Shown: positions 43,105 to 62,680 of the stretch, in pieces
Position numbering within the stretch: the first letter of the stretch is position 1
Layout: each line of letters opens with the position of its first letter
Source: Martelella lutilitoris
Lineage (GTDB): Bacteria; Pseudomonadota; Alphaproteobacteria; Rhizobiales; Rhizobiaceae
Assembly (NCBI RefSeq): GCF_016598595.1
Contig: NZ_CP066786.1
Span: 3,802,001-3,866,000, forward strand
DNA: 64,000 bases
Reading direction: 5' to 3'
Notes under the pieces: generated by a model
The model's input: the letters and a program-made list of their open reading frames with translations, nothing else
What the model was told of the DNA's origin: nothing
Databases searched by the model: none
Position numbers and translations under genes: made by a program

Positions 43105-43149
43105 CTAGAGCGCCGTGCGTCCTTTCGGACGCACAAAGGACGCTCTAAC
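43105..43149. repeat. Left half of a dispersed hairpin repeat interrupted by an IS
   Basis: Starts CTAGAGCGCC and contains the perfect hairpin GTGCGTCC-TTTC-GGACGCAC (43115-43134), enclosed by GAGCG (43108-43112) and CGCTC (43141-43145). It ends in TCTAAC (43144-43149), which is repeated after the IS. It joins to the segment beginning at 44191 when the IS is removed. Confidence 0.8.
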
Positions 43150-44101: not shown

Positions 44102-44184
44102 TCGGAGCCTCCGGTGAGTGCTGAAGCGTGGTAACTCCAGTCTCCTCGGTCCGCTCCGAATGGACAACCTCCTGAAAGCCCACA
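43150..44184 (-). mobile_element. IS481-type insertion sequence, 1035 bp, intact
   Basis: Terminal inverted repeats begin TGTGG and end in GGTTGTC: 43150-43171 matches the reverse complement of 44163-44184 in about 17 of 22 positions. A perfect 6-base target duplication, TCTAAC, flanks the element (43144-43149 and 44185-44190). One transposase gene fills it on the minus strand. The intact ends, exact duplication and unbroken gene indicate a recent insertion. It lies in a dispersed repeat between the aminotransferase and galE, so no gene is broken. Confidence 0.93.
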
Positions 44185-44255
44185 TCTAACCTATTGAATC
44201 TACGCATCGTGCTTTCCGAAAATCGATTCCGATTTTCGGGCCGATGCGCTAGAGC
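44185..44255. repeat. Right half of the interrupted dispersed repeat
   Basis: Starts with the duplicated TCTAAC and contains a perfect 10-bp hairpin, CCGAAAATCG-ATTC-CGATTTTCGG (44216-44239), within GCATCG (44204-44209) and CGATGC (44242-44247). It ends in GCGCTAGAGC, so the galE stop codon (44249-44251) and the codons before it lie in the repeat edge. Confidence 0.8.
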
Positions 44256-45241
44256 TTCACCCGCCCCTTCACCAACTGGTCTTCCCAGGCAAGCGCATGG
44301 CGGACAATGGTTTCGAGGTCGTCATATTGCGGCTCCCAGCCAAGGATTTCACGCACGCGCGTTGAATCGGCGACCAGTGCCGGCGGATCGCCGGGACGAC
44401 GCTCGGCCATGTCCACGCGGAAGTCGACGCCGGAAACCTGCTTGATCGCATCAACCACCTGCAGCACGGAAAAACCGTGGCCATAGCCGCAGTTGGCAAC
44501 GAAATTCTCGCCGCCGTTCAGAAGATGCATCAGCGCCTTCACATGGGCGTCAATCAGGTCGGTGACGTGAATGTAGTCCCTGAGGCAGGTGCCGTCCGGC
44601 GTCGGATAGTCCGTGCCGAAGATCTGCATGCGATTGCGTCGTCCGGTTGCCGCCTGGGCGGCGATCTCGATCAGGTGCGTGGCATGTTCGCGGGTCTCGC
44701 CGGTGCGGCCTTCCGGATCGGCGCCGGCGACGTTGAAATAGCGAAGGGCCGCATATTTCAAACCATAGGCGGCCGCGCTGTCACGCAGCATCACTTCGGT
44801 CATCAGCTTCGACCAGCCATAGGGCGAGACCGGCTGCAGGTTCTGTTCCTCATCGAGAAGATCAACGCCGGGTTCTCCGTATACGGCGGCCGTCGAGGAA
44901 AACAGGAAGGCCTCGATCTTGGCCGCCACGGCCGTTTCGATCAGCGCGCGTGATTTGACCGTGTTGTTTTCGTAGTAGGTCAGAGGATCGGACACCGAGT
45001 CGGAGACCACGATCGAGCCGGCGAAATGGGCGACGGCGTTGATCTTCTCATCCGCGATCAGCTTCGAGACCAGCTTCTTGTCAGCGATATCCCCCTCGAC
45101 CAGCTTGGCCTTTTCGGGGATCAACTCGCGGTGGCCGGTCGACAGATCGTCGATGACCACGACGTCCTCGCCGCGATCGATGAGCGCATGCGCCATGTGG
45201 CTGCCGACATAACCGGCGCCGCCTGTTACGAGTATTGCCAT
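44249..45241 (-). CDS. galE: UDP-glucose 4-epimerase
   Basis: A 330-residue extended short-chain dehydrogenase. It has the NAD motif 'TGGAGYVGS' at residues 6-14, catalytic Tyr141 and Lys145 in 'SPYGWSK', and the serine pair in 'LFSSTAAVYGE'. It interconverts UDP-galactose and UDP-glucose, closing the Leloir cycle and feeding surface polysaccharide synthesis. GGAGG precedes ATG 45241. It lies 44 bases after lacZ, the last gene of the galK-galT-lacZ-galE series on this strand. Its final codons come from the edge of a dispersed repeat. Confidence 0.95.
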   Translation of the reverse strand: MAILVTGGAGYVGSHMAHALIDRGEDVVVIDDLSTGHRELIPEKAKLVEGDIADKKLVSKLIADEKINAVAHFAGSIVVSDSVSDPLTYYENNTVKSRALIETAVAAKIEAFLFSSTAAVYGEPGVDLLDEEQNLQPVSPYGWSKLMTEVMLRDSAAAYGLKYAALRYFNVAGADPEGRTGETREHATHLIEIAAQAATGRRNRMQIFGTDYPTPDGTCLRDYIHVTDLIDAHVKALMHLLNGGENFVANCGYGHGFSVLQVVDAIKQVSGVDFRVDMAERRPGDPPALVADSTRVREILGWEPQYDDLETIVRHALAWEDQLVKGRVKL

Positions 45242-45285
45242 ATCTGGACCTCCTTCTGGCGCAACGCGCCCTGCTCAACGTTGTT

Positions 45286-48363
<3,078 letters not shown>

Positions 48364-48387
48364 TCAATATCCTGGCTTTCCGGCCAA

Positions 48388-49425
48388 TCAGTCTGCGAGA
48401 TAGTGGATGTCGGGCAGGTCGCGCAGCCGGTCTGCCGCCTGCTCCGGCGTCAGGTCGCGCTGCGGCGAGCCGAGCAATTCGAAGCCGACCATGAATTTCT
48501 TCACCGTGGCCGAGCGCAAGAGCGGCGGCAGGAAATGGGCATGCATCACCCATTCATCATGATCATCGCCGTCGGTCGGCCGCTGGTGGAAGCCCATGGA
48601 ATAGGGAAACGACGTCTTGAAAAGATTGTCATAGCGCACGGTGACCTTCGACAGCGCCTCGGCGAGTTCCTCTCGTTCCCTCTCCGTCATCTCCTCCATC
48701 GAGCGGATATGACGCTTCGGCAGCACCATGGTCTCGAATGGCCAGACAGCCCAATAGGGCACCAGCACCACGAAGCCCTCGTTTTCGAACAGGATGCGCT
48801 CCCCGAGCGCCAGTTCCTGCTCGAGATAGGCCATCAGAAGCGGCTTTCCATGCTTCTCGTAATAGGCGCGCTGGTTCTCCGTTTCCTTTGCCGCTTCGTT
48901 CGGCAGGCTGCGGCTTGCCCAGATCTGGCCGTGCGGATGGGGATTGGAACACCCCATCATCGCGCCGCGGTTTTCGAAGATCTGGACGTGATTGATGTCG
49001 GGGTGGACGCCAAGTTCCTCATATTGCGCGACCCAGCTATCGACCACCTTGGCGATATCGGCGACCGCCATGCGGGCCAGCGTCAGGTCGTGGCGGGGCG
49101 AAAAGCAGATGACGCGGCATATGCCGCTCTCGCCCTCTGCCAGAAGAAGCCCGTCTTCGAAACGCTCCTTCGGCGCGTGCTCCGTCAGCGCCGCGAAATC
49201 ATTGTCGAAGACATAAGTGCCCGTGTAATCGGGGTTCTTCTCACCGTTAACGCGGGTATTGCCGGGGCAGAGATAGCAATCCGGATCATGGGCTGGCATC
49301 TCCTGCGTCGCCGCGTCCTCGACCTGGCCCTGCCAGGGGCGCTTGGCGCGATGCGGGGAGACCAGCACCCAATCGCCCGAAAGCGGATTGTAGCGGCGAT
49401 GCGGGTGATCGGAAAACGCGTTCAT
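48388..49425 (-). CDS. galT: Galactose-1-phosphate uridylyltransferase
   Basis: A 345-residue Leloir enzyme that exchanges galactose-1-phosphate with UDP-glucose. The uridylylated active-site His lies in '[14 protein letters not shown]', the HPH motif of the family. An N-terminal metal-site segment 'CYLCPGNTR' with a CxxC pair is present. ATG 49425 follows GAGGAG and gives '[19 protein letters not shown]'. It lies 33 bases after galK and is followed by lacZ, so the genes look cotranscribed. Confidence 0.95.
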
Positions 49426-49458
49426 CGTTTCAACTCCTCTCATTCATCCGGCCTTCCT

Positions 49459-50616
49459 TCATCCGAAAAGGGGACCGGCGCCATCCTGCGGGGCGCAGGC
49501 AAAGATGTCGGAGGTGTGGCCCGTGGCTTCGAAATAGGCCGCACGCACACTTTCAATAAAGTCATCAACCGCCTCGACGGCGACAAGGCTGACCACGCAG
49601 CCGCCGAAACCGCCGCCGGTCATTCGCGCGCCGAAAACGCCCGGCAGCGACTGAGCAATCTCAACCAGCTTATCGACCTCGGCGCAGGAAATCTCGTAAT
49701 CATCGCGCATCGAAACGTGGGAGGCGTTCATCAATCGTCCGAAAGCGTCCAGGTCGCCGCGCTCCAGCACCTCGGCGGCGGCGAGCACGCGCCCGTTCTC
49801 TGTCACGATATGGCGGCAGCGTCGGTAGGTTGCCTCCGGCAGAAGATCGCGATGCTCCTCGAGCGCGTCGAAACTGACATCGCGCAGAGCCTTAATGTCG
49901 CCCAGCGCGGGCTGAAGCAGGCGCACGCCCTCCTCGCAGGAGTTCCGGCGCTTGTTGTACTCGCCGTCGGCAAGCGCATGATGGACCATGGAATTGGCGA
50001 CCACGATCCGCGCCTTCGGGTCGATCGGCACCGGTTTGCGCTCCAGCGAGCGGCAATCGATCATCAGCGCATGGTCATGCACGCCGTTGCAGGAGATGAA
50101 CTGGTCCATGATGCCGCAGCGCATGCCGACATACTCGTTTTCCGCCTTCTGGCAGATTTTCGCGAGTTCGACGGTATCGACCGCGTAGCCGGAAAGCGAC
50201 AGAAGCGCATAGCCGACCACCACTTCGAGGGCAGCCGACGAGGAAAGGCCGGAACCGACGGGCACGCTCGATGAGACCAGAATATCCGCGCCCTTGAGCG
50301 TCGTGCCTGCCTTTTCGATCATGACGGCGACGCCGAAGGCGTAATCCGTCCAGTCGCCGCGCGGCGCGTTCGCCTCTGCGTCGAGATCGATTTCGGCGCT
50401 CCTGCCGTTGTTGAGGGAGTGGATCGTGATGATCCGGTCTTGGCGCGCGGCGGCCGCCGCCTCCGCCTCGAATTCGAGCGCCGCCGGCATGACGAAACCG
50501 TCATTGTAATCGGTATGCTCGCCGATCAGGTTGACGCGTCCCGGCGCGCGGAAAAATCGAGGGCTCCCGCCGAAACGCTCGGCGAAGGCCTCACGCAGTG
50601 AAACGGTGTCGGACAT
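49459..50616 (-). CDS. galK: Galactokinase
   Basis: A 385-residue GHMP kinase that phosphorylates galactose at C1. The signature 'GRVNLIGEHTDYNDGF' and the ATP loop 'PVGSGLSSSAALEV' are present, with the catalytic Asp in 'CGIMDQFI' and the C-terminal 'ARMTGGGFGGC'. ATG 50616 is preferred because GGAGG lies four bases upstream and the protein begins 'MSDTVSLREAF'. It is first in the gal series, separated from the ABC operon by a terminator at about 50737-50768, so it probably has its own promoter in the 170-base gap. Confidence 0.95.
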   Translation of the reverse strand: MSDTVSLREAFAERFGGSPRFFRAPGRVNLIGEHTDYNDGFVMPAALEFEAEAAAAARQDRIITIHSLNNGRSAEIDLDAEANAPRGDWTDYAFGVAVMIEKAGTTLKGADILVSSSVPVGSGLSSSAALEVVVGYALLSLSGYAVDTVELAKICQKAENEYVGMRCGIMDQFISCNGVHDHALMIDCRSLERKPVPIDPKARIVVANSMVHHALADGEYNKRRNSCEEGVRLLQPALGDIKALRDVSFDALEEHRDLLPEATYRRCRHIVTENGRVLAAAEVLERGDLDAFGRLMNASHVSMRDDYEISCAEVDKLVEIAQSLPGVFGARMTGGGFGGCVVSLVAVEAVDDFIESVRAAYFEATGHTSDIFACAPQDGAGPLFG

Positions 50617-50736
50617 CTTCCCTCCCTGAAAATAAGACGGGCGCATGTGATGATGAATGAGGTTTGGCGTCAACCAGACTTGTCAAGAAGACCGGTTTTT
50701 TATGGGCAGACATGCCAAAAAATGCGGGGATAGCAG

Positions 50737-50786: not shown

Positions 50787-52046
50787 TTACTTGTTGAGTT
50801 CCTGCTGGACGCCTTCATCCATGGTCTTCAGACCATCTTCGACCGAGATGTTGTCGGTCATGATGTTGTCATGGGCACGGTTCAAGACAACCTCGATATC
50901 GGCCGCCTTCAGGTTGACCGGCATTTCGAGATAGCTCTGGACGGTCTTGAGCGCCCCCTTGCTGGTCTCGTCCGTCGGGAAACCATCCTTCGACGTGATC
51001 GTCGCGAGAACCTCGTCCGTCATCAGCGCCGGAAAGGTGCCGGTTTCGGCGATCACCTTGGCGCCTTCGGGACCGGCAATGAAGTTTGCGAACTTCATTG
51101 CGGCATCCTTGTTCTCGGAATTGGCCGCAACGCCGATCGAGGTGACGGTGGCAGCCGTGGTGCCGGCCTCGACGCCTTCCATATGCGGATAGCGGGCGAT
51201 GCCCCAGTTGGTGGCCAGCGATTCGCCCGACTGAACCTTCTGGATCTGCGTGCCGATGAACCAGCTTCCCATGGGCAGCATGGCAACCGCGCCGTTGTAG
51301 AACGGGCCGGAATAGTGCGTGCCGGAGGTCTTCAGCTGGGCATAGGACGGCACGGCGCCGTCTTCCTGGAGGCTGAGAACGCGTTCATAGCAGGACTGCA
51401 GGAATTCGTAGGAACCACCATCGAGCGTATGTTCACCGTCCATGATGCAGGGCAGTTGCACGGTGGAACGCCACGTGTGAAACAGGCCGCCATAGGTCTT
51501 GTTGGCGCCGAAACCCGAGGTCAGCGCGCGCGCCTTTTCGGCGAATTCGTCCCAGGTCATGTCGTTGGTCGGATACTCGACGCCGGCCTCATCGAAGAGG
51601 TCCTTGTTGTAGTAAAGGATCCAGACATCGGAACGGAACGGCAGGGCATAGACATTGCCGTCAACCGTCAACGCCTCGATCAGGCCGCCATAGGCTTTTG
51701 TGTCGATGTCGTTTTCGGCGATATCGTCGTTGAGCGGAGCGAGAAGATTGGCCTTCACCAGATTGGCGTATCCCGGAATGTCCTTCACCTGGACGACATC
51801 GAGGTCTGAGCCGCCGCCGGAAAGCTGGGTCATCAGCATGGTGGAGAAATCGGCCGAACCGAGATCGGTGTGTTCGACGGTGATGTCGGGGTACTTGGCC
51901 TCGAAGGCGTCGATGATCGGCTGGTAATAGGCCGTCGCGTCCCAGTCCCAGAGCGCCCAGTTGATGGTCGTCTTCTCCTGTGCCTGGGCGGCAAGCGGCA
52001 TCAGGCCGACCGTTGCCAGAAGGGTCAGTTTGAGCAGGTTTTTCAT
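50787..52046 (-). CDS. ABC transporter sugar-binding protein (family 1)
   Basis: A 419-residue periplasmic binding protein with a clear signal peptide ('LLKLTLLATVGLMPLAAQAQ'). The beginning 'TTINWALWDWDATAYYQPIIDAFEAKYPDITVEHTDLG' is typical of family 1 oligosaccharide-binding proteins. GGAGGAG lies five bases before ATG 52046. It is the last and probably most heavily translated gene of the transporter operon and would define which oligosaccharide the system captures. The ligand cannot be read from sequence; the GH88 and lyase neighbours point to an unsaturated uronate-containing sugar. Confidence 0.93.
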   Translation of the reverse strand: MKNLLKLTLLATVGLMPLAAQAQEKTTINWALWDWDATAYYQPIIDAFEAKYPDITVEHTDLGSADFSTMLMTQLSGGGSDLDVVQVKDIPGYANLVKANLLAPLNDDIAENDIDTKAYGGLIEALTVDGNVYALPFRSDVWILYYNKDLFDEAGVEYPTNDMTWDEFAEKARALTSGFGANKTYGGLFHTWRSTVQLPCIMDGEHTLDGGSYEFLQSCYERVLSLQEDGAVPSYAQLKTSGTHYSGPFYNGAVAMLPMGSWFIGTQIQKVQSGESLATNWGIARYPHMEGVEAGTTAATVTSIGVAANSENKDAAMKFANFIAGPEGAKVIAETGTFPALMTDEVLATITSKDGFPTDETSKGALKTVQSYLEMPVNLKAADIEVVLNRAHDNIMTDNISVEDGLKTMDEGVQQELNK

Positions 52047-52060
52047 GATTACTCCTCCGT

Positions 52061-52792
52061 TTAGGCGCGCTTTTGCGCCGTTGCCATGGTTTTCGCGTCC
52101 TCGTCACCCTGATTGATGCGGGAGAACGCGAAACCGGTTGCCTTGTGCGCGCCAAATGCCAATGCGAGCGCGCCAAGGGAAAAGTTGAAGACCACCGGGG
52201 TGAACACGGTGACAGGATAAAAGGCGATGTGGACGAGCCAGAGCGTCGCCATGAAGGCGAGGCCGGCGAGAACCGGCAAAGGCCGCGCGATCGCCGCAAG
52301 TAGTGCCACCTGAAGCAATCGACCGCCGGCAAGTTCAAATCGCGTCATGGCCGAAAACAAGCAAACCGCCACGATCGCGACAAAGGCGATTACGCAGACG
52401 CCGATGGCCGTCGGTAGCACATAGACGAGCGCGTGCCGGGCGAGCTGGCCGTAGATATAGACCGCGTAGCCGGCAAGACCGAGGATCAGCGCAAGGCCAA
52501 GCCCCCATGCCGTCGCCCGCAGGAAGTGGCGGGCGAAGGCGCGGCGGAAATCCCGCCAGAGCCAGACGTTTTCGTCCTCGATCATCACATTGGCGATGTT
52601 CATGCCGGCTGCAAGCGCGGCAGGCGCCGTCACCACCGGAATGGAGCAGACCAGCATCAGGATATTGAGCCTGAACAGGTCCCAGGCCTCGCGAACGAGA
52701 ATGAAGGCGAAGAGGGCAAGCCCCTTCTTCTTCGGCGCATTCTTGGGAATGCCCGGTCCTTCCCGCATCATCCAGTTGGTCAGCCAGTTCAT
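52061..52792 (-). CDS. YesL-like (DUF624) membrane protein
   Basis: A 243-residue protein with five or six hydrophobic segments. The motif 'EAWDLFRLNILMLVCSIPVVT' is that of the DUF624/YesL family. YesL proteins occur next to carbohydrate ABC importers in many bacteria, including the Bacillus rhamnogalacturonan yes cluster, but have no proven function. It lies 36 bases after the ATPase gene and 14 before the binding protein. It is sandwiched among the transporter genes, so an accessory role in uptake is likely. Confidence 0.85.
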   Translation of the reverse strand: MNWLTNWMMREGPGIPKNAPKKKGLALFAFILVREAWDLFRLNILMLVCSIPVVTAPAALAAGMNIANVMIEDENVWLWRDFRRAFARHFLRATAWGLGLALILGLAGYAVYIYGQLARHALVYVLPTAIGVCVIAFVAIVAVCLFSAMTRFELAGGRLLQVALLAAIARPLPVLAGLAFMATLWLVHIAFYPVTVFTPVVFNFSLGALALAFGAHKATGFAFSRINQGDEDAKTMATAQKRA

Positions 52793-52828
52793 GTCAAGAC
52801 GCCTCCCGCGTCCCTCAAACCCGAATTG

Positions 52829-53938
52829 CTAGTAGAGAATGGATTGCTCCGTTTCCTTGTCGAAGAGATGCGGATTGACGAGATCGGCGATCAGATCGAT
52901 CGCTTCGCCGTCCTTCGCCGCGCAGCGCGGTGAAACCCGCGCGATCATGTCGTGGCCATGGGCCGTCATGTTGAGATGGATCTCCGCGCCCATCGGCTCG
53001 GCCAGATCGACCAACGCCGTGAACGGGCAGGTGAATTCCGGCGCGATGTCATGGGGCTGGCTTTCGTGGAAGTTTTCCGGCCGAAGACCGAGAATGATTT
53101 CCTTGCCCTCATAGGGCGCAAGCCGGTCCGCCTTGTCGCCGACGATCAGCGGAAACGCCGTCTCGTGGAAGCGTCCGACCCAGTCTTCGCCATCGCGTTC
53201 GACGGCGACCGGCAGCATGTTCATCTGCGGCGCGCCGATGAAGCCGGCAACGAACATGTTGACCGGATTGTCGTAAAGCATCTGCGGTGTGTCGACCTGC
53301 TGGATATAGCCGTCCTTCATGACGACGATGCGGTCGGCCATGGTCATGGCCTCGACCTGATCGTGGGTGACATAGATGAAGGTGCTGTCGAGCTGGCGGT
53401 GCAGCTTGGTGATCGCCGTGCGCATGGAGCCGCGCAGCTTGGCATCGAGGTTCGACAACGGTTCGTCGAGCAGGAAGACCTCCGGATTGCGCACCATGGC
53501 GCGACCCAGCGCCACGCGCTGGCGCTGGCCGCCGGAAAGCGCCTTCGGCTTGCGGTTCAGAAGATGTTCGATATCGAGGATCTTCGCCGTTTCGCGGACC
53601 TTCTGGTCGATCTCGGCTTCAGGCGCCTTTCGGAGCTGAAGGCCGAATGCCATGTTCTTGTAGACCGTCATATGCGGATAAAGCGCATAGTTCTGGAACA
53701 CCATGGCGATATCGCGTTCCTTCGACGGCACGTCGTTGACGAGCTCGTCGCCAATATAGAGCTCGCCCGCCGAAACCTCTTCCAACCCGGCAATCATCCT
53801 GAGCGTGGTCGATTTGCCGCAGCCGGACGGCCCCACCAGGATGATGAATTCCTTGTCGGCGATCTCCAGATCGATGTCGTGGACGACCGTCAGCGCGCCG
53901 TATGTTTTTCTCAGTTTTCTAAGCGAGATTCCGGACAT
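52829..53938 (-). CDS. ABC sugar importer ATP-binding protein (MsmK/UgpC type)
   Basis: A 369-residue ATPase. It has Walker A 'GPSGCGKST', the Q-loop, the signature 'LSGGQRQRVALGRAMV', Walker B 'VFLLDEPLSNLD' and the H-loop 'VTHDQVEAMT', then a C-terminal regulatory OB-fold domain ('LGLRPENF'), as in MalK-type importers. It energises the two permeases encoded upstream in the same operon. It follows the GH88 gene by 30 bases, an unusual place for the ATPase and evidence that hydrolase and importer are one functional unit. Confidence 0.95.
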   Translation of the reverse strand: MSGISLRKLRKTYGALTVVHDIDLEIADKEFIILVGPSGCGKSTTLRMIAGLEEVSAGELYIGDELVNDVPSKERDIAMVFQNYALYPHMTVYKNMAFGLQLRKAPEAEIDQKVRETAKILDIEHLLNRKPKALSGGQRQRVALGRAMVRNPEVFLLDEPLSNLDAKLRGSMRTAITKLHRQLDSTFIYVTHDQVEAMTMADRIVVMKDGYIQQVDTPQMLYDNPVNMFVAGFIGAPQMNMLPVAVERDGEDWVGRFHETAFPLIVGDKADRLAPYEGKEIILGLRPENFHESQPHDIAPEFTCPFTALVDLAEPMGAEIHLNMTAHGHDMIARVSPRCAAKDGEAIDLIADLVNPHLFDKETEQSILY

Positions 53939-53968
53939 AATCGTATCCTCTCAAAGCCGCCGCGGGCG

Positions 53969-55144
53969 TTACCAGTAGGAGGACCAGTTGCGCGAAAGCC
54001 GCGTCAACGCCTCGAGATAATAGTAGTCGCCCCAGGACACGCACTCGTCGACGCCTTCCGGCGTGCAGGTGTTGTAGGGCGTCTTCTTCGAATAGGTGCC
54101 GTGAAGCACGAGGCCGTTGGAAACCGCCGGATCCTTCACCGCGTAGTTGTCGGCCAGGCTCTTGACGAAACGCCTGGCGATATCACGATAGGCAGCGGCA
54201 TCCTCGCCGCCGACGATATCGGCCATTTCGAGCAAGCCGCAGGCAACGATCGCGGCAGAAGAGCTGTCGCGCGGTTCGTCATCGCCGTCGGAAAAAATCA
54301 TATCCCAATAGGGCACCATGTCGGCCGGCAGGCGCGTCATGAAGAAATCGAGCGCCTTCCTGAACATCGCCGCATATTCCGGCTTCGGGTCGTAGCGGTA
54401 GGACAGCGCCAGCCCGTACACCGACCATGCCTGGCCGCGCGCCCAGTCGCTGTCGTCGCGATAGCCCTGAACCGTAACGCCCTTCACAGGGCCGCCCGTC
54501 TGGGGGTCCATGAAGAAGGTGTGATAGGTCGAGCCATCCTCGCGGAAGGAATTGGCGAGCGTGGTCGCGGCATGAATGCGGGCGATGTCGCGGTATTTCC
54601 CGTCGCCCGTCTCGCGGCTAGCCCAATAGAGCAGCGGCAGGTTCAACAAGCAGTCGATGATGTAGCGGTAATTCTCCCGCGCGCCCATTTCACCCCAGGC
54701 CTGGATGAAACCGCCGACTTCGTGAAAACGCGCAATCAGCTGGTCGGCAGCAAGGATCGCGGCCTTGCGCCCGTCCTCGTCGCCCACCAGTTTCCAGGCG
54801 GCGACGCAGGTCGGCGAATAGAGGAAGCCCATATCATGATGGTCGACCTCGATTTTGTTCTCGATCCGGTGCAAAAAGCTCTGCACCTGAATCTGGGCGG
54901 CATGCTGAAACACCTTGTCGCCGGTCAGTTCATAGGCGAGCCAGATCTCGCCCGGCCAGAAGCCGCAGGTCCACTGGTTGTTGTCGATCGCCGGATAGAA
55001 ATTGTCGACGCTCGAATGGTTCTGCTGGCGATAGGTGAAGGCCGGCAGGTTGCGGCGCACCTGGGCGACGGCAACGGCAATCGCCGCGTTGACTTCAGCG
55101 TCTGTGATCGGGGCGACGGCGGTGTTTTTCTCGTCAACGGTCAT
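53969..55144 (-). CDS. Unsaturated glucuronyl hydrolase, GH88
   Basis: A 391-residue (alpha/alpha)6-barrel enzyme that hydrates the C4-C5 double bond of unsaturated uronic acids left by polysaccharide lyases, releasing the sugar. It matches the UGL pattern: 'TCGFWPGEIWLAYELTGD', 'DHHDMGFLYSP' with catalytic Asp near 104, 'FIQAWG', 'IIDCLLNLPLLYWAS' with the second Asp at 164, and 'WGDYYYLEALTRLSR' at the end. The two Asp are about 60 apart, as in the characterised enzyme. ATG 55144 is used; the open frame reaches to 55432 but overlaps the permease antisense to its coding logic. No signal peptide. Coded between permease and ATPase. Confidence 0.9.
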   Translation of the reverse strand: MTVDEKNTAVAPITDAEVNAAIAVAVAQVRRNLPAFTYRQQNHSSVDNFYPAIDNNQWTCGFWPGEIWLAYELTGDKVFQHAAQIQVQSFLHRIENKIEVDHHDMGFLYSPTCVAAWKLVGDEDGRKAAILAADQLIARFHEVGGFIQAWGEMGARENYRYIIDCLLNLPLLYWASRETGDGKYRDIARIHAATTLANSFREDGSTYHTFFMDPQTGGPVKGVTVQGYRDDSDWARGQAWSVYGLALSYRYDPKPEYAAMFRKALDFFMTRLPADMVPYWDMIFSDGDDEPRDSSSAAIVACGLLEMADIVGGEDAAAYRDIARRFVKSLADNYAVKDPAVSNGLVLHGTYSKKTPYNTCTPEGVDECVSWGDYYYLEALTRLSRNWSSYW

Positions 55145-55149
55145 CAGGA

Positions 55150-55986
55150 TCAGCCTTTCAGTCCGGCATTGGCGACGCCTTCGACGAAGAAGCGCTGCAG
55201 CGCCAGGAAGACGGCGAGGACGGGGATGATGGCAACGACGGATGCCGCCATAATCAGCCCATATTCGGCCGAGTATTGCGAAATGAACATGCGAAGGCCG
55301 ATCTGGATCGTCTTCAGATCCGTTTGCGTCAGATAGATCATCGGGCCGAGGAAGTCGTTCCAGGCGAAGACGAAGGTGAAGATCGTCAGCGTCGACAGCG
55401 CCGGCTTCGACAAGGGCAGCATGATCTTCCACCAGATCTGGTACTCATTCATGCCGTCGACGCGCGCGGCCTCGCACAGCTCATCGGGGATCGACATGTA
55501 GAACTGCTTCATCAGGAACACGCCAAAGGCGGTGAAGGCCTGAAGCGCGATCAGCGCCCAGTGGGTGTTGTAGAGCCCGAATTCCCGCATCAGGATGAAC
55601 TGCGGCACCATGTAGACCTGCCAGGGCATGGCGATGGTCGCGATGTAGCCGAGGAACAGCACGTCGCGATAAGGGAATTTCAGCTTGGCGAAGGCATAGG
55701 CTGCGAACGACGAGGTGAAGAGCTGCAGCAGCGTCACCATGATCGTGATCTTGGCGGTGTTGAAGACGAAGAGACCGAGCGGAATCTTGGTCCAGATCTG
55801 CACATAGTTGGACCAGCGCGGATTTTCCGGGATCCAGTGGATCGGGAATTCGAACACCTCGCGGTTGAACTTCAGAGACGCCGAGAGCATCCACGCGAAC
55901 GGCAACAGCATGATGATCGTGATGACGATGATCAGCGCGTAGAGGGCGATCGTGGAGAGTTTGATCTTGCGACCGAAAATTTGCAT
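55150..55986 (-). CDS. ABC sugar importer permease 2 (MalG-like)
   Basis: A 278-residue inner-membrane permease with six helices. The EAA loop reads 'ELCEAARVDGMNEYQIWWKIMLPLSKPAL', which contacts the ATPase. The N-terminal helix 'ALIIVITIIMLLPFAWML' and the length are typical of MalG-type subunits. AAGGGGAAGGG precedes the ATG. It follows permease 1 by 13 bases and precedes the GH88 gene by five, so it is in the same operon. Confidence 0.95.
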   Translation of the reverse strand: MQIFGRKIKLSTIALYALIIVITIIMLLPFAWMLSASLKFNREVFEFPIHWIPENPRWSNYVQIWTKIPLGLFVFNTAKITIMVTLLQLFTSSFAAYAFAKLKFPYRDVLFLGYIATIAMPWQVYMVPQFILMREFGLYNTHWALIALQAFTAFGVFLMKQFYMSIPDELCEAARVDGMNEYQIWWKIMLPLSKPALSTLTIFTFVFAWNDFLGPMIYLTQTDLKTIQIGLRMFISQYSAEYGLIMAASVVAIIPVLAVFLALQRFFVEGVANAGLKG

Positions 55987-55999
55987 CTGACCCTTCCCC

Positions 56000-56941
56000 T
56001 TAATCGAGACTGCGCGAATAGCGGAACTGGATCAGCGTGACGGCCAGAACCAGGACGAAGAGGACAAGGGCGACCATGCTCGAATAGCCGAGATCCCAGG
56101 AGATGAAGGCCTCGTTGTAGATGTGATAGACCAGCACCAGCGTCGAGGTTCCGGGCCCGCCCTGCGTGATCATGTAGACCTGGTCGAACACCTTGAAGGA
56201 GTTGATGGTCAGCATGACCGAGACGAAGAAGGTGGTCGGCGCCAGCTGCGGCAGCGTCACGTTCCAGAACTTCTGCCACGCATTGGCGCCGTCGAGATCG
56301 GCCGCCTCATACAGCTCGCGGTTCACGCCCTGAAGACCGGCCAGATAGATCACCATGAAATAGCCGGCCTGCTTCCAGATGCCGAACAGGATGATGGTGA
56401 CCATCGCCCAGTCCTTGTCCGCCGCCCAGCCGGGCAGGTTCTTCGGATCGACGCCCATCGTATAGAGGATCATGTTGACCGGACCCATTTCCGGGTTGAA
56501 CAGCATGTTCCAGACGACGGCAGCGGCCACCAGCGATGCGACATAGGGAAAGAACATCGCCGCGCGGAAGAAATCGCGCCCGAAGATCTTCTTGTTCAGG
56601 AGCATGGCCAGACCCAGCGAGCAGGCCATTGTCAGCGGCACGGAGAACACCGTGTAGATGATCGTGTTCCAGAACGCGGCCTGGAAGGCCTTGTCGCGGA
56701 AAAGCTCGAAGAAATTGGCGAGGCCGGCAAACTCGATCGGGTTCGAGCCGTCCCAGTGCATGAAGGCAAGCGCGAAGGCGAAGATGATGGGCCCGAGGGT
56801 GAAAACCGCGAAACCAAGGAAGTTCGGCGCAATGAAGGAGAAGGCGACGAGGCTTGCCCGCCGCTTCTGCTGACTTTTCGTCAGCACACGGCGCTTCTTC
56901 CTCTTTTGCCCTGTCGCTAAGCCTAAGCCGGTGGCAGCCAC
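56000..56941 (-). CDS. ABC sugar importer permease 1 (MalF-like)
   Basis: A 313-residue permease with six helices and an N-terminal extension rich in Lys and Arg. The EAA loop is 'ELYEAADLDGANAWQKFWNVTLPQLAPTT'. It pairs with permease 2 to form the channel. The start is GTG 56941, with GGGAGG six bases upstream. It is the first gene of the leftward operon and shares the divergent promoter gap (56942-57243) with the lyase gene. Confidence 0.93.
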   Translation of the reverse strand: MAATGLGLATGQKRKKRRVLTKSQQKRRASLVAFSFIAPNFLGFAVFTLGPIIFAFALAFMHWDGSNPIEFAGLANFFELFRDKAFQAAFWNTIIYTVFSVPLTMACSLGLAMLLNKKIFGRDFFRAAMFFPYVASLVAAAVVWNMLFNPEMGPVNMILYTMGVDPKNLPGWAADKDWAMVTIILFGIWKQAGYFMVIYLAGLQGVNRELYEAADLDGANAWQKFWNVTLPQLAPTTFFVSVMLTINSFKVFDQVYMITQGGPGTSTLVLVYHIYNEAFISWDLGYSSMVALVLFVLVLAVTLIQFRYSRSLD

Positions 56942-57243
56942 GTGATCCTCCCATCCTGCGGTCCGCCGCAGGGCGACAAACCGGGAAAGCCTTTTACGAG
57001 CGCCATGGCAGACGTCCGTGATTTTGGCTCATCCTATCGTCGGAAAACATATAATACAAGTATCCAAAAATGTATTTTTCTGACTAAAACTTATCCGACA
57101 TATGTGCTAGAGCATAGCGAAATCCATGCCTCCCTCCGTAGACTGAGGGCCTCGCGGCCCGAGGACAGGCACGGAAAAAGAACAAGTTCATGCCGCGCCG
57201 TCGCCCGTCCGCACACGGGACCGGCCGGATACGGGAGGACGGA
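56942..57243. promoter_or_regulatory. Divergent promoter region of the sugar locus
   Basis: No gene is visible in this 302-base gap. A long A/T-rich stretch (about 57041-57115) contains ATAATACAAGTAT (57051-57063), whose ATACAA box (57054-57059) is also found upstream of the FadR-type regulator. It is the natural control region for both the ABC operon and the lyase operon. Confidence 0.55.
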
Positions 57244-59034
57244 ATGTTTCGCGAGCGCCTTCAGGCCCTGCCAGATGCCTTCGAGCCTTTTTCGCCGGGC
57301 TGGCCTGCCGCCGACCGCGACAAATGGTCATCCCTGCCGGAGGAATACGCCGCCCGGCTGACCGAGGCGGCCGAGAACTGTCCTCTCGCATGGCCGGTGC
57401 TTCCCGCAAGCGCCTATCTCGCCTTTTCCCGCACCGGCGACCGCATCGGCTACGAGACGCCCTATATGCAGCGCCGCCGCATGCTGAACGCCCTGGCGCT
57501 CGGCGAATGCGTTGCCGGCGACGGGCGCTATCTTGATCGGATCATCGACGGCGCGCTGCTGATTGCCGAGGAAAGCGGCTGGCAGCTTCCGGCCCACAAT
57601 GTCTATATCCGCGATGCGCAGGTATTGCCGCTGCCCGACCCGCGCCGTCCGGTCGTCGATCTCTTCGCCGCCGAGACCGGGGCGGAGCTTGCCGTGCTTG
57701 CGACCCTGTTCGAAGCGGAACTGAACGCGGTGACGCCGATGATCGTCTCCCGGCTCGACGATGAGGTCAGCCGCCGCGTCATCCGGCCCTATCTGGAGGA
57801 GCACTTCTGGTGGATGGGCCGGGGCGACGAGCCGATGAACAACTGGACTGCCTGGTGCACGCAGAATGTGCTGCTGGCGGCCTTCTCACGCCCCTTCGAC
57901 ACTGACACCCGGCGACACGTCGTCGAAAAGGCCGCCGCCAGCCTCGACTTCTTCCTCAAGGACTATGGCGAGGACGGCGCCTGCGAGGAGGGCGTGCTTT
58001 ACTATCGCCATGCCGGACTTTGCCTTTTCAATGCCCTCAACATCCTCGCGACGGTCGCGCCCGACGCCTTTGCCCCGCTCTTCCGCGACCAAAAGATCCG
58101 CAATATGGCGGATTTCATCGCCTATATGCATGTGGCAGACGACCGCTATTTTAATTTTGCCGATTCGTCAGCCCGGGCAGGCTTTTGCGGCGCGCGCGAA
58201 TATCTCTTCGGCAAGGCCGTCGGTTCGACCATGCTTGCAGATTTCGCCGCCGCCGACTGGAAGACTTCGCCCGAACCCGACGCGCCGGAGGAGATCAACC
58301 TTTTCTATCGCCTGCAGGGGGCGGTGACCGCCCGGGAACTGGCAGCACACGAGGCGCAGCGCCCGGCGCCCGAAGACCGGTTCTTCCCGAGCATCGGCCT
58401 CCTGGTGGCCCGCGACCAGCGCTTCGCCCTTGCAGTCAAGGCCGGCGACAACGGCGAAAGCCATAACCACAACGACACAGGCAGCTTCACGATCTACAAG
58501 GACGGAAGGCCCTTTATCATCGATGTCGGCGTCGAGACCTATACCGCCAGGACCTTCTCTGCCCGTCGCTATGAAATCTGGACCATGCAGTCCGCCTTCC
58601 ACAACCTGCCGAGATTCGGCGGGGTGATGCAGCAGGACGGAGAAGCCTTTGCGGCAAGCGAGGTTACGGTATCGCTTTCAAACGAAGCCGCACGCATCTC
58701 CATGGAACTGGCCGGGGCCTATCCGAGGGAGGCGGGCGTCAAAACCTACCGTCGCACGGTGACTTTCACCAAGGGCCGGGGCATCGACATCACGGAGATA
58801 TGCGACGCGGAAAAGCCCGCCACGCTCTCGCTGATGGTCGCGATAAAACCCGAGGTCGCCGAAGGACGGATCACCCTTCCCGATCTTGGAGAGATCGCCA
58901 TCGAAGGCGGCGGCAGGCCGCAGGTCGAGGCCATCGCCATCACCGATCAGCGCCTCAGGGCCGCCTGGCCTGACACGCTCTATCGTATTCAAATCCCCCT
59001 GGGCGGTCGAACGCTCAGGCTTTCAATCAATTGA
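57244..59034 (+). CDS. Heparinase II/III-family polysaccharide lyase
   Basis: A 596-residue protein with an N-terminal helical toroid (about 1-360) and a C-terminal beta-sandwich. The junction carries the family signature 'SHNHNDTGSFTIYKDGRPFIIDVG' with catalytic-site His and Asp; 'NNWTAWCTQN' and 'YGEDGACEEGVLYYRHAG' are conserved in the toroid. These lyases cleave uronic-acid polysaccharides by beta-elimination. I see no signal peptide ('MFRERLQALPDAFEP'), so it likely acts on imported oligosaccharides. GGAGG precedes ATG 57244; the in-frame ATG at 57190 is less likely. Exact PL family and substrate are open. Confidence 0.87.
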   Translation: MFRERLQALPDAFEPFSPGWPAADRDKWSSLPEEYAARLTEAAENCPLAWPVLPASAYLAFSRTGDRIGYETPYMQRRRMLNALALGECVAGDGRYLDRIIDGALLIAEESGWQLPAHNVYIRDAQVLPLPDPRRPVVDLFAAETGAELAVLATLFEAELNAVTPMIVSRLDDEVSRRVIRPYLEEHFWWMGRGDEPMNNWTAWCTQNVLLAAFSRPFDTDTRRHVVEKAAASLDFFLKDYGEDGACEEGVLYYRHAGLCLFNALNILATVAPDAFAPLFRDQKIRNMADFIAYMHVADDRYFNFADSSARAGFCGAREYLFGKAVGSTMLADFAAADWKTSPEPDAPEEINLFYRLQGAVTARELAAHEAQRPAPEDRFFPSIGLLVARDQRFALAVKAGDNGESHNHNDTGSFTIYKDGRPFIIDVGVETYTARTFSARRYEIWTMQSAFHNLPRFGGVMQQDGEAFAASEVTVSLSNEAARISMELAGAYPREAGVKTYRRTVTFTKGRGIDITEICDAEKPATLSLMVAIKPEVAEGRITLPDLGEIAIEGGGRPQVEAIAITDQRLRAAWPDTLYRIQIPLGGRTLRLSIN

Positions 59035-59046
59035 CGGGAGACCCCC

Positions 59047-59841
59047 ATGGAGATCACGCTTTCCGTTCTCGACAAGGCCGGCGAGCTGCGCGCCCGAAAT
59101 ACCGGAAACGAGGCTGTTTCGTTGTTTTTCCGGAACGCCTACGCGCCCGGCGACCGGATCACCGTCGAGACCGGCAGCCCCGGGAGTTTCATCACGCTTT
59201 CAATCGATAATACACTCTCGCCGGCCGTCGTGTTCATGAAAGAGAGCGCGTTCAGCTTCCCCATTCCCTTTGGCGATGCGAAAACCGTTTACGCGCCGAC
59301 GGCGTTTTCCGGCGAGCACCACAGGATCTCGGCGCAAGCGACCGGCCCGGATGCGCTCTCCGGCATCCGCAATCTGGCGCTGAACCCGGCGGACCATGGC
59401 GCAAGCGCTGCAGCCTACCCGCACGCCTCCGCCAGCGTCGAGACGCGCGGCGAGGCCGCCTTTGCCGCGCGCAACGCCATCGACGGCGAGATCGCCAGCG
59501 ACGACCACGGCTTCTGGCCCTATACAAGCTGGGGCATCAATTGCGATCCGGAAGCAACGATGACGGTGGAATTCGGCCGCCGGGTCGTCGCGCAGTCGGT
59601 CGTGCTCTTTACCCGCGCCGACTTTCCCCATGACGCCTGGTGGACCTCGGCCCGCATTGTCTTCAGCGACGGCCATTCCATCAATGTCCCGCTTGAGAAA
59701 ACCGGGGCGGGACAGCGCTTTGCCTTTCCCGAGCGCGAAACGGAATGGGTGCGGCTCGAAAAACTGGTCAAGGCTGACGACCCCTCGCCCTTCCCCGCTC
59801 TCACCCAGATCGAGGTCTGGGGGCGCGAAGCAGGCCCCTGA
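59047..59841 (+). CDS. Unrecognised protein with discoidin-like (F5/8 type C) C-terminal half
   Basis: A 264-residue protein I do not recognise as a whole. Residues about 1-95 look like a beta-rich domain ('LSVLDKAGELRARNTGNEAV', 'PGDRITVETG'). Residues about 120-264 resemble a galactose-binding/F5-8 type C module: 'NLALNPADHGASAAAYPHASASVETR', 'AARNAIDGEIASDDHGFWPYTSWG', 'TMTVEFGRRVVAQSVVLFTRADF' and 'WVRLEKLVK'. There is no signal peptide or membrane segment. It lies 12 bases after the lyase stop with GGGAG upstream, so it is coexpressed with the lyase and probably binds the same sugar or supports its active form. Confidence 0.75.
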   Translation: MEITLSVLDKAGELRARNTGNEAVSLFFRNAYAPGDRITVETGSPGSFITLSIDNTLSPAVVFMKESAFSFPIPFGDAKTVYAPTAFSGEHHRISAQATGPDALSGIRNLALNPADHGASAAAYPHASASVETRGEAAFAARNAIDGEIASDDHGFWPYTSWGINCDPEATMTVEFGRRVVAQSVVLFTRADFPHDAWWTSARIVFSDGHSINVPLEKTGAGQRFAFPERETEWVRLEKLVKADDPSPFPALTQIEVWGREAGP

Positions 59842-59865
59842 GCACTCATCCTGCCGGAGCGAATG

Positions 59866-59898
59866 TTGTATTGTATTTCCGTTCAACTTATCATACAA
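59866..59898 (+). promoter_or_regulatory. Candidate operator cluster upstream of the FadR-type gene
   Basis: TTGTAT occurs at 59866-59871 and again at 59871-59876, and the inverse ATACAA at 59893-59898, all within 33 bases and 90-120 bases before the regulator start. The ATACAA element recurs at 57054-57059 in the ABC/lyase promoter. The repeated, inverted arrangement suits a GntR-type dimer; binding is not shown. Confidence 0.45.
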
Positions 59899-59986
59899 TT
59901 TTTAAAGAAGAGCTGCTTCTGTCGTCCGGCATAAACAGTTCGCAGCCGGCGTCAGGGCCGATGCCTGACCGCAAAGGGGATGAATT

Positions 59987-60748
59987 TTGGCAACGCAAAC
60001 CGCCGCACGCAATGGAACCCTGGTCCATAAGGTCAGCGAGGCCTTGCGGCGGTCGATTCTGGACGGCGCGTTTCAGCCCGGCGACAAGCTGCCGAGCGAG
60101 GCCCGACTGACCCAGGAACACGGCGTTTCGCGCACCGTGGTGCGCGAGGCGGTTGCCGCCCTCAGGTCCGACGGCCTCGTCGAGCCGCGCCAGGGCGCCG
60201 GCGTCTTCGTCCTCGACCCGATCTCCTTCGCCTTCAGGCGCACCAATCCGATGGTCGATTCCGAGCGGATCTATACATCGCTCGAAATCCTCGAAGCGCG
60301 CACGCCGCTGGAAATCGAGGCGGCGGGGCTTGCCGCGCTCAGGCGCTCGCCGGCGCAGGAGGAAGAGATTTTCGCTCGCCATGCCGAAGGCATTGCCGGG
60401 CGTCATGACGGCAAGGCCTGGAGCGAGGCCGATATCGGCCTGCATCTCGCCATCGCCAAGGCCACCAACAATCCGCTGTTCGCGACCTTCCTGGAAATGC
60501 AGGGCAAGGCCATCATCCCCCAGACGGGCCAGGTGATCGAAACCGACGACGGCGGCGAGGTCGCCTATCGCAACCTGCTGATCAAGGAACATGAGCGCAT
60601 CATCTTCGCCATTTCCAACGGCGATGAACAGGGCGCGCGCGATGCGATGCGGGAGCACCTCAAAGGCAGCCTCGGGCGCTATCGCAGCCTTCTGCGCGAG
60701 GAGCGCGTGCGCCACATGGCCAAGCTTCAGCAGGACAGCGAAGCCTGA
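59987..60748 (+). CDS. FadR-subfamily GntR transcriptional regulator
   Basis: A 253-residue regulator with an N-terminal winged helix-turn-helix ('AFQPGDKLPSEARLTQEHGVSRTVVREAVAALRSDGLVEPRQGAGVFV') and a helical FCD domain whose metal-binding residues are expected in 'DIGLHLAIAKATNNP' and 'EHERIIFAI'. Many relatives of this type control uronate or sugar-acid genes. The start is TTG 59987 with AAGGGGA upstream. Its location beside the lyase genes and the TTGTAT boxes point to local control of the sugar locus. It is convergent with the DUF2264 gene. Confidence 0.9.
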   Translation: MATQTAARNGTLVHKVSEALRRSILDGAFQPGDKLPSEARLTQEHGVSRTVVREAVAALRSDGLVEPRQGAGVFVLDPISFAFRRTNPMVDSERIYTSLEILEARTPLEIEAAGLAALRRSPAQEEEIFARHAEGIAGRHDGKAWSEADIGLHLAIAKATNNPLFATFLEMQGKAIIPQTGQVIETDDGGEVAYRNLLIKEHERIIFAISNGDEQGARDAMREHLKGSLGRYRSLLREERVRHMAKLQQDSEA

Positions 60749-60799
60749 CCACCCCCGGATGGCGGGCCGTCATTCGGCTCCAGCCGCCCTTGTCCTTGC

Positions 60800-62680
60800 T
60801 CAGACAGTCACCCCGTTTTCGGCGCAGAGCGCCCTGACCGCTTCCGGCAGGTCGACCGGCGGCAGCGCCTCCACAGGATCCGTCACGCCATAGACTGCGG
60901 TGACGATGAAATGCTCACCGGCGGGAAATTCGCCCACAAGCCGGGGGAACAGCGTGCGCGGAAAACGGATATTCGTGTTGGGCGCCGCGCGGATGATCTC
61001 GCCGGCCCGCGTCCCGGACAGGTCAATGATCGCCGATGTGTGGGTCGGCGTTACGATTGCGGCGCGGCCGCTCTCATGCGAAAGGCCGCCGGCAAAGGCA
61101 GGATCGCGCTCGCCGGTGCGGTCCACGGCAAAGCCGCCTTCGCTGACGAACAGCCTGCCCTTCGTCCTGATGCGATGCAGGCGGACATGCCAGCCGGCGC
61201 CGGCGAAATCGAGCCAGGTGTCGATCCTCAGCCGGTCATCCGGCTGCCATGCGCCCCAGACCATGCCGTAGTCGACGCCCTCTTCGGTGATCACCGCACG
61301 CGAGAGGTAGCTCAGGCCGTCGCGCGAGACGGCAAGGCCGCAATCCACCGCGCTGCGATCGGGATGGTCGGGCAGGGTCACATCGGCTTTCACCGAGAAC
61401 CCGAAGGCGGATGAATAGGCGAAGCGGGCATATTTGGCATCATGGGCGCGGTGTTCGCGTCCGTCCTGCCCGCCCGTCAGCATCACTGCGTCACCAGGAG
61501 CGCGCCTGAGGATAAAACCTGCCGCCGGCGAAAATACGCGGCCGCCGGGAAGCGCTTCCGGCGGCTCTTCCGCCGCCGCCCAGAAGGGATGATCCTCATC
61601 AAGCGCCAGCACGAGGAATGATTTCAGCGCCCAGTAGGGCGAGCCCGGCGCATTGTAGGATTCCGACATCAGCAGGTTCGGATAGGCATAACCGATGGAA
61701 AGCACGCCGTCCCTGTCGGCGATCGGCATTTTCGACCACCAGCGCAGATGCCTCAACAAAAGGCCCTTGATCCGGCCCCAGGGCAGCACTTCCTCATCGG
61801 CAAAGGCGCAGGCCGCCCAGAAGGCGCCCTCGGCGAAACGATAGGTCAGCGAGCGGCCGTGAGGCACGGCCGCGCCGTCATCGGCAAACCAGTGCTGGAA
61901 ATCCTGCGCATAGATGCGGGCGCGCTCCCGGTAACGCGCCGCGTGGTCGGGAAAGATGTCGCCGGCATACCTGGCGACCATCAGTCCGTAGAAATGCAGC
62001 GCCATCGGCAGGTAGTAGTCGCGGTGGCCCCATTGGCCGTCGCGATAATAGCCGTCGCCGAGATAATAGGTCTCGATGCGCTCGAGTGCGGCGTGCACCG
62101 CTTCTTCAGACCATTGCCGTCCGACGTTGCGGAGTCCGAGATTGACCAGCACGCGGAAGAACAGCCAGTTATTGTCGGGCACCTCCCGCTCGTTGATCTT
62201 CAGGAGCCAGCGCTCGGCCTTGTCCTTGGCAGGCTCCGACATCGGCCGCCAGAAGCTATCCGGCGCGACGAGCAGGGCAAGGGCGATGCCTGCCGTCTCG
62301 ACCAGACGCTGGTCGAAATCACCGGGCTCGCCCCAGAATTCCTCGTGGTTGACATCCATGCCGTGGGAGAAGCCCTCGACGAAACGCCGGCAATCCTCGA
62401 AATCGAACCCGCCGGCGACCAGCGGCACGATACCCCACAGAGGGCGGATGAAAGCCTCCATTTCGGCTGCATCGTCATCATAGTGGGCGGAGCCCGCCGA
62501 AAGTCGCAGCCGCGCATTGCCGGGGGAATACCACGGCACGAGCGGCGCGTAGAAACCGGCGACGGCGGCCTGGAGATCGGCCTTGGTCTTGAGCGGGTTA
62601 CCGGCCATGGGATTGCAGTCCGCCATGCGCCGCACAAGCGGCTGGCGATCCCATTGCGAAAACGACTGTCCGGAAACCAT
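60800..62680 (-). CDS. DUF2264 domain protein
   Basis: A 626-residue protein. The N-terminal 350 residues are rich in aromatic, helical segments ('NWLFFRVLVNLGLRNVG', 'DGYYRDGQWGHRDYYLPMALHFYGL', 'DGAAVPHGRSLTYRFAEGAFWAA') like an (alpha/alpha)6 toroid, and the C-terminal part is beta-rich. This is the DUF2264 family, found in carbohydrate-use loci and structurally reminiscent of lyases and unsaturated-sugar hydrolases. No activity is established. No signal peptide is evident, so it is probably cytoplasmic. It has its own promoter in the gap at 62681-63063 and faces the FadR-type gene. Confidence 0.85.
   Translation of the reverse strand: MVSGQSFSQWDRQPLVRRMADCNPMAGNPLKTKADLQAAVAGFYAPLVPWYSPGNARLRLSAGSAHYDDDAAEMEAFIRPLWGIVPLVAGGFDFEDCRRFVEGFSHGMDVNHEEFWGEPGDFDQRLVETAGIALALLVAPDSFWRPMSEPAKDKAERWLLKINEREVPDNNWLFFRVLVNLGLRNVGRQWSEEAVHAALERIETYYLGDGYYRDGQWGHRDYYLPMALHFYGLMVARYAGDIFPDHAARYRERARIYAQDFQHWFADDGAAVPHGRSLTYRFAEGAFWAACAFADEEVLPWGRIKGLLLRHLRWWSKMPIADRDGVLSIGYAYPNLLMSESYNAPGSPYWALKSFLVLALDEDHPFWAAAEEPPEALPGGRVFSPAAGFILRRAPGDAVMLTGGQDGREHRAHDAKYARFAYSSAFGFSVKADVTLPDHPDRSAVDCGLAVSRDGLSYLSRAVITEEGVDYGMVWGAWQPDDRLRIDTWLDFAGAGWHVRLHRIRTKGRLFVSEGGFAVDRTGERDPAFAGGLSHESGRAAIVTPTHTSAIIDLSGTRAGEIIRAAPNTNIRFPRTLFPRLVGEFPAGEHFIVTAVYGVTDPVEALPPVDLPEAVRALCAENGVTV

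Follow-up and report, generated by a model that had tools for sequence, protein, structure and literature searches.

In haloarchaeal glycosaminoglycan (GAG) loci, an ATP-binding cassette (ABC) oligosaccharide transporter is clustered with GH88 and GH154 genes, in one locus with a GH2 gene, and the loci also encode an extracellular PL8-type lyase and a sulfatase (PMC13260240). A cluster in Streptobacillus moniliformis combines disaccharide import by an ABC system that depends on a solute-binding protein (SBP) with a GH88 enzyme that is predicted to be cytoplasmic; it also contains PL8, PL12, sulfatase, and KduI/KduD genes, and GH154 is not named in its gene list as available (PMC5430744). In PUL25 of Bacteroides caccae, a PL35 lyase, the dehydratase BcGDH, and GH88 form one cycle to which a GH109 enzyme is added, and the available text mentions no ABC importer (PMC12269599). 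The ulvan dehydratase P29_PDnc likewise converts a saturated uronate at the chain end into a substrate of an unsaturated-uronyl hydrolase, in that case a GH105 enzyme in the degradation of sulfated ulvan (PMC8511951), and its sequence is unrelated to GH154 (PMC12269599). In hyaluronan utilization by Bacteroides, the pair BT4410/BT4411 (PL33 plus DUF4627) places a PL33 enzyme beside an accessory protein, BT4411, which is described as probably periplasmic (PMC11848413, PMC12877422). Here we describe a locus of Martelella lutilitoris (genome size 4.79 Mb) that shares features with each of these systems. It lies at 50787–62680 of a 64,000-nucleotide stretch, C1:3802001-3866000, which we call the window.

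Window genes were identified from a listing of open reading frames and from Pfam and NCBIfam profile scans, with the genes from 41896 to 63846 scanned. On the minus strand, running from 56941 down to 50787, are two permeases, GH88, an ATPase, a YesL/DUF624 protein, and a CUT1 binding protein, followed by galK, galT, lacZ, and galE. The plus strand carries a heparinase II/III-type lyase, a DUF7402 protein, and a GntR/FCD protein, and a DUF2264 gene is again on the minus strand. All of the genes named in the original prediction are present at the positions it gave within 50787–62680, and the gene calls bear out its placement of galK-galT-lacZ-galE on the importer strand.

Like the haloarchaeal loci, the window clusters an ABC oligosaccharide transporter with GH88 and a member of the former GH154 family (DUF2264); unlike them, it has a PL33 enzyme without an obvious signal peptide and a DUF7402 gene, and no sulfatase was found among the window genes scanned. 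The proposed system shares SBP-dependent import, GH88, and KduI/KduD with the S. moniliformis cluster, the combination of lyase, dehydratase, and GH88 with PUL25, and a PL33 gene adjoining an accessory gene with BT4410/BT4411. The accessory proteins belong to different families, and a Bacteroides finegoldii homologue of BT4411 has no profile similarity to DUF7402. For one B. finegoldii plasmid, an incomplete gene table annotates neither an ABC nor a GH88 gene within 8 kb. The original prediction had matched the whole set to no described pathway; in that form the view is not supported, as every enzyme step has a published precedent (PMC11848413, PMC12269599, PMC5430744, PMC13260240). In the parts of the open-access literature available, we found no paper uniting PL33, GH88, and GH154, and nothing on the window locus.

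Conservation of the gene set

We surveyed 297 genomes drawn from the Rhizobiaceae and retrieved PL33 with roughly 9 kb of flanking sequence to either side, which gave 18 loci other than that of the window. PL33 matched at E ≤ 1e-20 in 20 of the 297 genomes; 19 of these matches have more than 50% identity, and one is a 35% paralogue. GH88 matched at E ≤ 1e-60 in 25 genomes, with at least 69% identity in exactly the 19 PL33 genomes and 34–40% in the others, and PL33 and this GH88 subfamily are linked in all 19. Because the PL33 orthologues and the GH88 subfamily share the same 19 of 297 genomes, their clustering goes beyond chance, and we conclude that the gene set is a real conserved unit. DUF7402 was found in 18 genomes, all of them within the 19. 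In 17 of the 18 it lies beside PL33; in the remaining one the contig with PL33 breaks off and DUF7402 is at the start of another.

All 18 fetched loci contain both permeases, GH88, the ATPase, YesL, the SBP, and DUF2264, and in 17 the importer and PL33 are divergent. DUF7402 is present in 16 (it is absent from L037, and L038 stops at a contig end), as is the GntR homologue. DUF2264 follows the SBP in all 15 non-Martelella loci among these 18 and is placed elsewhere in Martelella, L064, L123, and L134. R. etli CFN 42 and A. vitis have the same gene order according to the annotation of their records. Joint conservation in relatives, on which the original prediction depended, is thus found, and it reaches well beyond the genus.

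A second survey covered the best 80 named PL33 loci of at least 589 relatives. Seventy-one contain the SBP, both permeases, and GH88, and 63 of these also have DUF2264; in four Lacrimispora-type loci that were scored as having no DUF2264, a match lies, by coordinates, 240–252 bases beyond the fetched edge. Fifty-nine of the loci are alphaproteobacterial (55 with the SBP, permeases, and GH88) and 21 belong to other phyla (16 with this set). The lyase and importer genes also occur in Lachnospiraceae, in one Treponema genome, and in one Calditrichales genome, mostly without DUF7402. Of 128 plasmid records that match PL33 at E ≤ 1e-60, 126 are rhizobial and 71 are typed as conjugative.

In the window, the importer comprises the CUT1-type SBP (50787–52046; PF01547), the G-type and F-type permeases (55150–55986 and 56000–56941; both PF00528), and a MalK/UgpC-type ATPase (52829–53938; PF00005 and OB_MalK) that scores 462.7 bits to NF008653 and passes its cut-off of 432, all on the minus strand. 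The SBP scores 570 bits to its structure match, 4rk2, whose entry name states no ligand; a search of the open-access literature for 4rk2 returned one unrelated paper. The YesL/DUF624 (MusI-like) membrane protein (52061–52792, minus strand) scores 32.6 bits to PF04854 and 70.7 bits to NF052431, the latter under the cut-off for that profile.

Residues and location of the predicted enzymes

The best PDB matches of the heparinase II/III-type lyase (57244–59034, plus strand) are the PL33 structures 8r70–8r75, with 308 bits to 8r75 across query residues 39–602 of 614, and the entries that come after them score at most 36 bits. The reading frame is open from an ATG at 57190; judged from relatives, 57244 is the likely start. 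The nearest named PL33, from M. lutilitoris, is 90% identical. Residues were placed in the published PL33 numbering (PMC11848413) by anchoring on N238 of the 8r75 row and then aligning the remaining positions. The row has Asp at 301, where BtPL33 has His (PMC11848413), and it may therefore represent the B. cellulosilyticus enzyme.

The catalytic residues N238, Y291, and H444 of BtPL33 correspond to N218, Y271, and H425 of the window lyase. W219, W222, Y451, and F456 are equivalent to W239, W242, Y470, and F475 in the same numbering, and R85, H136, L158, and W207 are equivalent to R103, H154, L174, and W224. All eleven residues are identical in the 19 family sequences. They are also identical in 73 of 73 sequences of the wider set (the window and 72 of the 80 named loci, the other eight of which yielded no usable PL33 frame), except that R85 is found in 72 and is opposite a gap in one. 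The −1 subsite contains a Trp (W242) in PL33 subfamily 1 and a Val in subfamily 2 (PMC11848413). W222, which matches the subfamily 1 Trp, and Y451 and F456, which match the Y470/F475 clamp, are kept in all 73 sequences. Position 301, which is His in BtPL33 and, together with the Val, Tyr in subfamily 2, is variable in this clade (G in 40, N in 25, T in 5, and others in 3 of the 73). The window protein is PL33-like and has the subfamily 1 Trp, and we predict that it has lyase activity. A more distant PL33-like gene (31% identity; G000:C3:225561-227378, locus L050) lies beside another ABC system, and similar distant genes occur in three other Martelella genomes and on one plasmid of Martelella sp. 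AD-3.

GH88 (53969–55144, minus strand) scores 379 bits to the Streptococcus agalactiae unsaturated glucuronyl hydrolase (UGL; 3anj/2zzr). Its 487-residue frame overruns the permease gene, and the protein probably begins at an internal ATG. D104 and D164, which we take to be the two catalytic Asp residues, align with D115 and D175 of the 3anj chain and are identical in all 19 family sequences. Another GH88/GH105-family gene of the same genome (G000:C1:4082590-4084358) has a KduI-family match adjacent to it.

DUF2264 is the family once named GH154, and it has been re-described as a β-D-glucuronate dehydratase that acts on saturated terminal glucuronate and so prepares it for GH88; alanine substitution of any of ten BcGDH residues gave inactive enzyme (PMC12269599). 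With an inferred numbering offset, the window protein (60800–62680, minus strand; 408.7 bits to PF10022) keeps all ten. Nine of them are identical in the 19 family sequences, and N170 is present in 18. These residues point to a probable β-D-glucuronate 4,5-dehydratase. A search of the open-access literature under the name DUF2264 found no paper.

The presence of genes for later steps in relatives, and of a KduI-family gene elsewhere in the window's genome (361.7 bits), fits the release of 5-keto-4-deoxyuronate. KduI-type genes are found in the loci of four relatives (two were scanned, and both are over the cut-off), and KduD is over the cut-off in L134. A GH2 gene lies between permease and GH88 in L121 (948–2777, minus strand) and in three other Lacrimispora-type loci; one of the four was scanned, with a score of 627.7 bits to the β-glucuronidase 6ncy. 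The idea that this GH2 enzyme substitutes for DUF2264 was dropped, given the DUF2264 matches 240–252 bases past the fetched edge.

The original prediction saw no signal peptide on any of the enzymes and placed depolymerization after import. As judged by hydropathy alone, the result came out in its favor: median N-terminal values were 0.76 for PL33, 0.97 for DUF2264, 1.22 for GH88, and 0.97 for DUF7402, as against 1.92 for the SBP control, with overlapping ranges, and no obvious signal peptide was seen. The PL33 frames of all 21 sequences from other phyla begin 40–57 residues before a common anchor (41 in the window) and show no typical leader; a Bacteroides PL33 is longer ahead of the anchor (76 residues). 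PL33 of this clade is likely to be cytoplasmic.

A probable import-first pathway and its candidate substrates

We consider it likely that the locus specifies an import-first, cytoplasmic pathway for short oligosaccharides containing 4-substituted β-D-glucuronate. Gene content, linkage, active-site residues, and distribution were observed directly; the reactions are inferred from knowledge of the families, and their location, their regulation, and the substrate are likewise inferences. The SBP and the CUT1 ABC transporter would bring short glucuronate oligosaccharides into the cytoplasm, where PL33 would cleave by β-elimination at a 4-substituted glucuronate, so that the new nonreducing end carries a 4,5-unsaturated uronate. 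Where the terminal glucuronate is saturated, DUF2264 would convert it to the same form by dehydration, and GH88 would remove the unsaturated uronate as 5-keto-4-deoxyuronate, which would pass to KduI and onward. The freed sugar would be metabolized separately; in Martelella, LacZ and the Leloir enzymes may process part of it as a β-galactoside. Possible substrates are GAGs, plant glycans, and bacterial exopolysaccharides, gellan for example. The uronate-oligosaccharide island of the original prediction stands as a coherent module that is conserved well beyond the genus; the gal genes that it included are linked to the module only in Martelella.

Several observations weigh against this pathway or its generality. 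Nine of the 80 named loci lack part of the SBP, permease, and GH88 set; four of these are on contigs shorter than 8.2 kb, and the other five (L062, L066, L115, L130, and L137) are longer. None of the 21 loci from other phyla has an ATPase, YesL, or GntR homologue over our thresholds, and 3 have DUF7402; by eye, 20 contain a sensor-kinase-like gene and 19 a response-regulator-like gene instead. A further search for DUF2264 in 14 genomes gave no match in 2 of them (those behind L114 and L066) and a weak one in the genome of L122. The window DUF2264 protein is modestly similar to BcGDH (83.8 bits to 9o4u) and has a C-terminal domain that is absent from the 400-residue BcGDH chain. The lyase is 33% identical to B. 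finegoldii PL33, the five purified subfamily 1 enzymes all come from Bacteroides and Prevotella (PMC11848413), and in the open-access literature, as far as it was available, we found no assay of any enzyme of the window clade. The short-chain dehydrogenase/reductase of L125 scores as a gluconate 5-dehydrogenase and not as KduD. The cytoplasmic placement of the enzymes rests on hydropathy, and in the alphaproteobacterial locus L134 the PL33 frame, whose start is uncertain, has a hydrophobic stretch close to that start. The sole search for an extracellular depolymerase (PL8, PF02278, whole genome) returned nothing, but it was uninformative because its controls were silent as well.

The system may instead be one for scavenging GAGs (hyaluronan, chondroitin, or heparosan) that differs from known ones only in having an intracellular lyase, a possibility that we regard as real but doubtful. 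Most of the characterized PL33 enzymes act on GAGs and one acts on gellan (PMC11848413), and published GAG loci likewise have an ABC transporter with GH88 (PMC5430744) and GH154 (PMC13260240). The closest PDB relative of GH88 is the streptococcal UGL, but the C-terminal loop of the window enzyme has a six-residue insertion relative to it. Moreover, no sulfatase or hexosaminidase is found among the window genes or the annotated recurrent neighbors, many neighbors being unannotated, and Rhizobiaceae make up most of the named hosts, with plant sources listed for many.

We give about the same weight to a plant or bacterial glycan in which glucuronate is next to galactose, with LacZ and galKTE completing the pathway in Martelella. 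Arabinogalactan-protein side chains (Rha-GlcA-Gal) and rhizobial exopolysaccharide are candidate glycans of this type. The galE-lacZ-galT-galK genes occupy 44249–50673 on the minus strand. Among 13 Martelella genomes, all of which have galT, PL33 and lacZ are present together in 9, and neither was found in the other 4. These 4 genomes have galK-galT-galE together, with no importer of the module type within the 20 kb fetched. As galK-galT lie between the module and lacZ, two separate segments differ. However, the four genomes form one clade by galK and galT, so the co-occurrence is one branch of evidence and may reflect a single event. The founding member of GH154, BT_3677, was earlier reported as an exo-β-1,6-glucuronidase, which also favors this substrate. 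Against it, the Lacrimispora GH2 enzyme resembles β-glucuronidases and not β-galactosidases, and no gal gene was over the thresholds in the non-Martelella loci of either survey (18 fetched, 80 named); the gal and lacZ genes are a Martelella-only addition. An IS481-family transposase gene (43145–44185, minus strand) lies directly downstream of galE.

It is improbable that PL33 is no lyase here and that it or DUF7402 carries out another reaction (dehydration or epimerization) on imported mono- or disaccharides: the clade is about one third identical to tested PL33 enzymes, features common to PL33 and GAG epimerases have been noted (PMC11848413), and DUF7402 has invariant loop residues, but PL33 retains those catalytic and +1-site residues that were mapped.

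DUF7402, regulation, and significance

The DUF7402 protein (59047–59841, plus strand; PF24135) consists of an N-terminal β domain and a discoidin/CBM32-like domain. AlphaFold2 (AF2) models had pLDDT values of 84.4 and 85.4, and fold searches with them indicated a discoidin-type jelly roll. The label “carbohydrate-binding protein” is a database name. DUF7402 probably binds oligosaccharide or assists PL33.

The GntR/FCD protein (59987–60748, plus strand; PF00392 and PF07729) probably regulates both arms of the locus, and a regulatory role is conceivable for the divergent intergenic region (56942–57243), in which about 57049–57063 is partly conserved among five Martelella sequences. A T.GT..AC.A-type pattern is absent from six intergenic stretches of the window. 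The sequence TGGTCAAA, for example in L068 near 9885, is found in 42 of 52 intergenic sequences between the F-type permease and PL33 (41 of 47 from outside Martelella and 1 of 5 from Martelella, in L060 and not in the window), and it is a possible site for the regulator. When two mismatches were allowed, a relaxed palindrome matched the window between 44000 and 64000 only at 54524 and 63923, neither of which is in that intergenic region.

A hexapeptide acyltransferase-like protein of about 530–550 residues is encoded in 21 of the 80 named loci (for example, L092:67-1734, minus; L105:66-1703, minus; L106:18239-19894, plus; and L134:2081-3667, minus). Its gene is 0–11 bases from DUF2264 in 11 loci and at most 1.2 kb from the GntR gene in 8 more, and in the two proteins scanned most of the C-terminal part has no Pfam match.

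The logic of the proposed pathway has been published in parts. What differs here is a PL33 clade that is probably intracellular, its dedicated DUF7402 partner in alphaproteobacteria, and a lyase, importer, and GH88 that are conserved in more than one phylum. A broader and more speculative reading is that this clade is an intracellular lyase branch common to rhizobia and gut Lachnospiraceae (with lyase and importer also in a Treponema and a Calditrichales genome), in which DUF7402 serves alphaproteobacteria as a new cytoplasmic oligosaccharide-handling protein or enzyme, the whole forming a self-contained import-then-depolymerize route for a glucuronate glycan not named for these bacteria. The rarity of DUF7402 outside the alphaproteobacteria makes this reading slightly less probable. 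In many rhizobia and in gut Firmicutes, genes with no annotation beyond heparinase, DUF2264, GH88, or DUF7402 would gain testable chemistry from the import-first pathway, and the role of DUF7402 could be tested against a defined partner. The pathway would also extend the recent idea of a dehydratase paired with GH88 to cells that import first and use another kind of lyase, and glucuronate oligosaccharides may be a nutrient common to rhizobia and gut Firmicutes.

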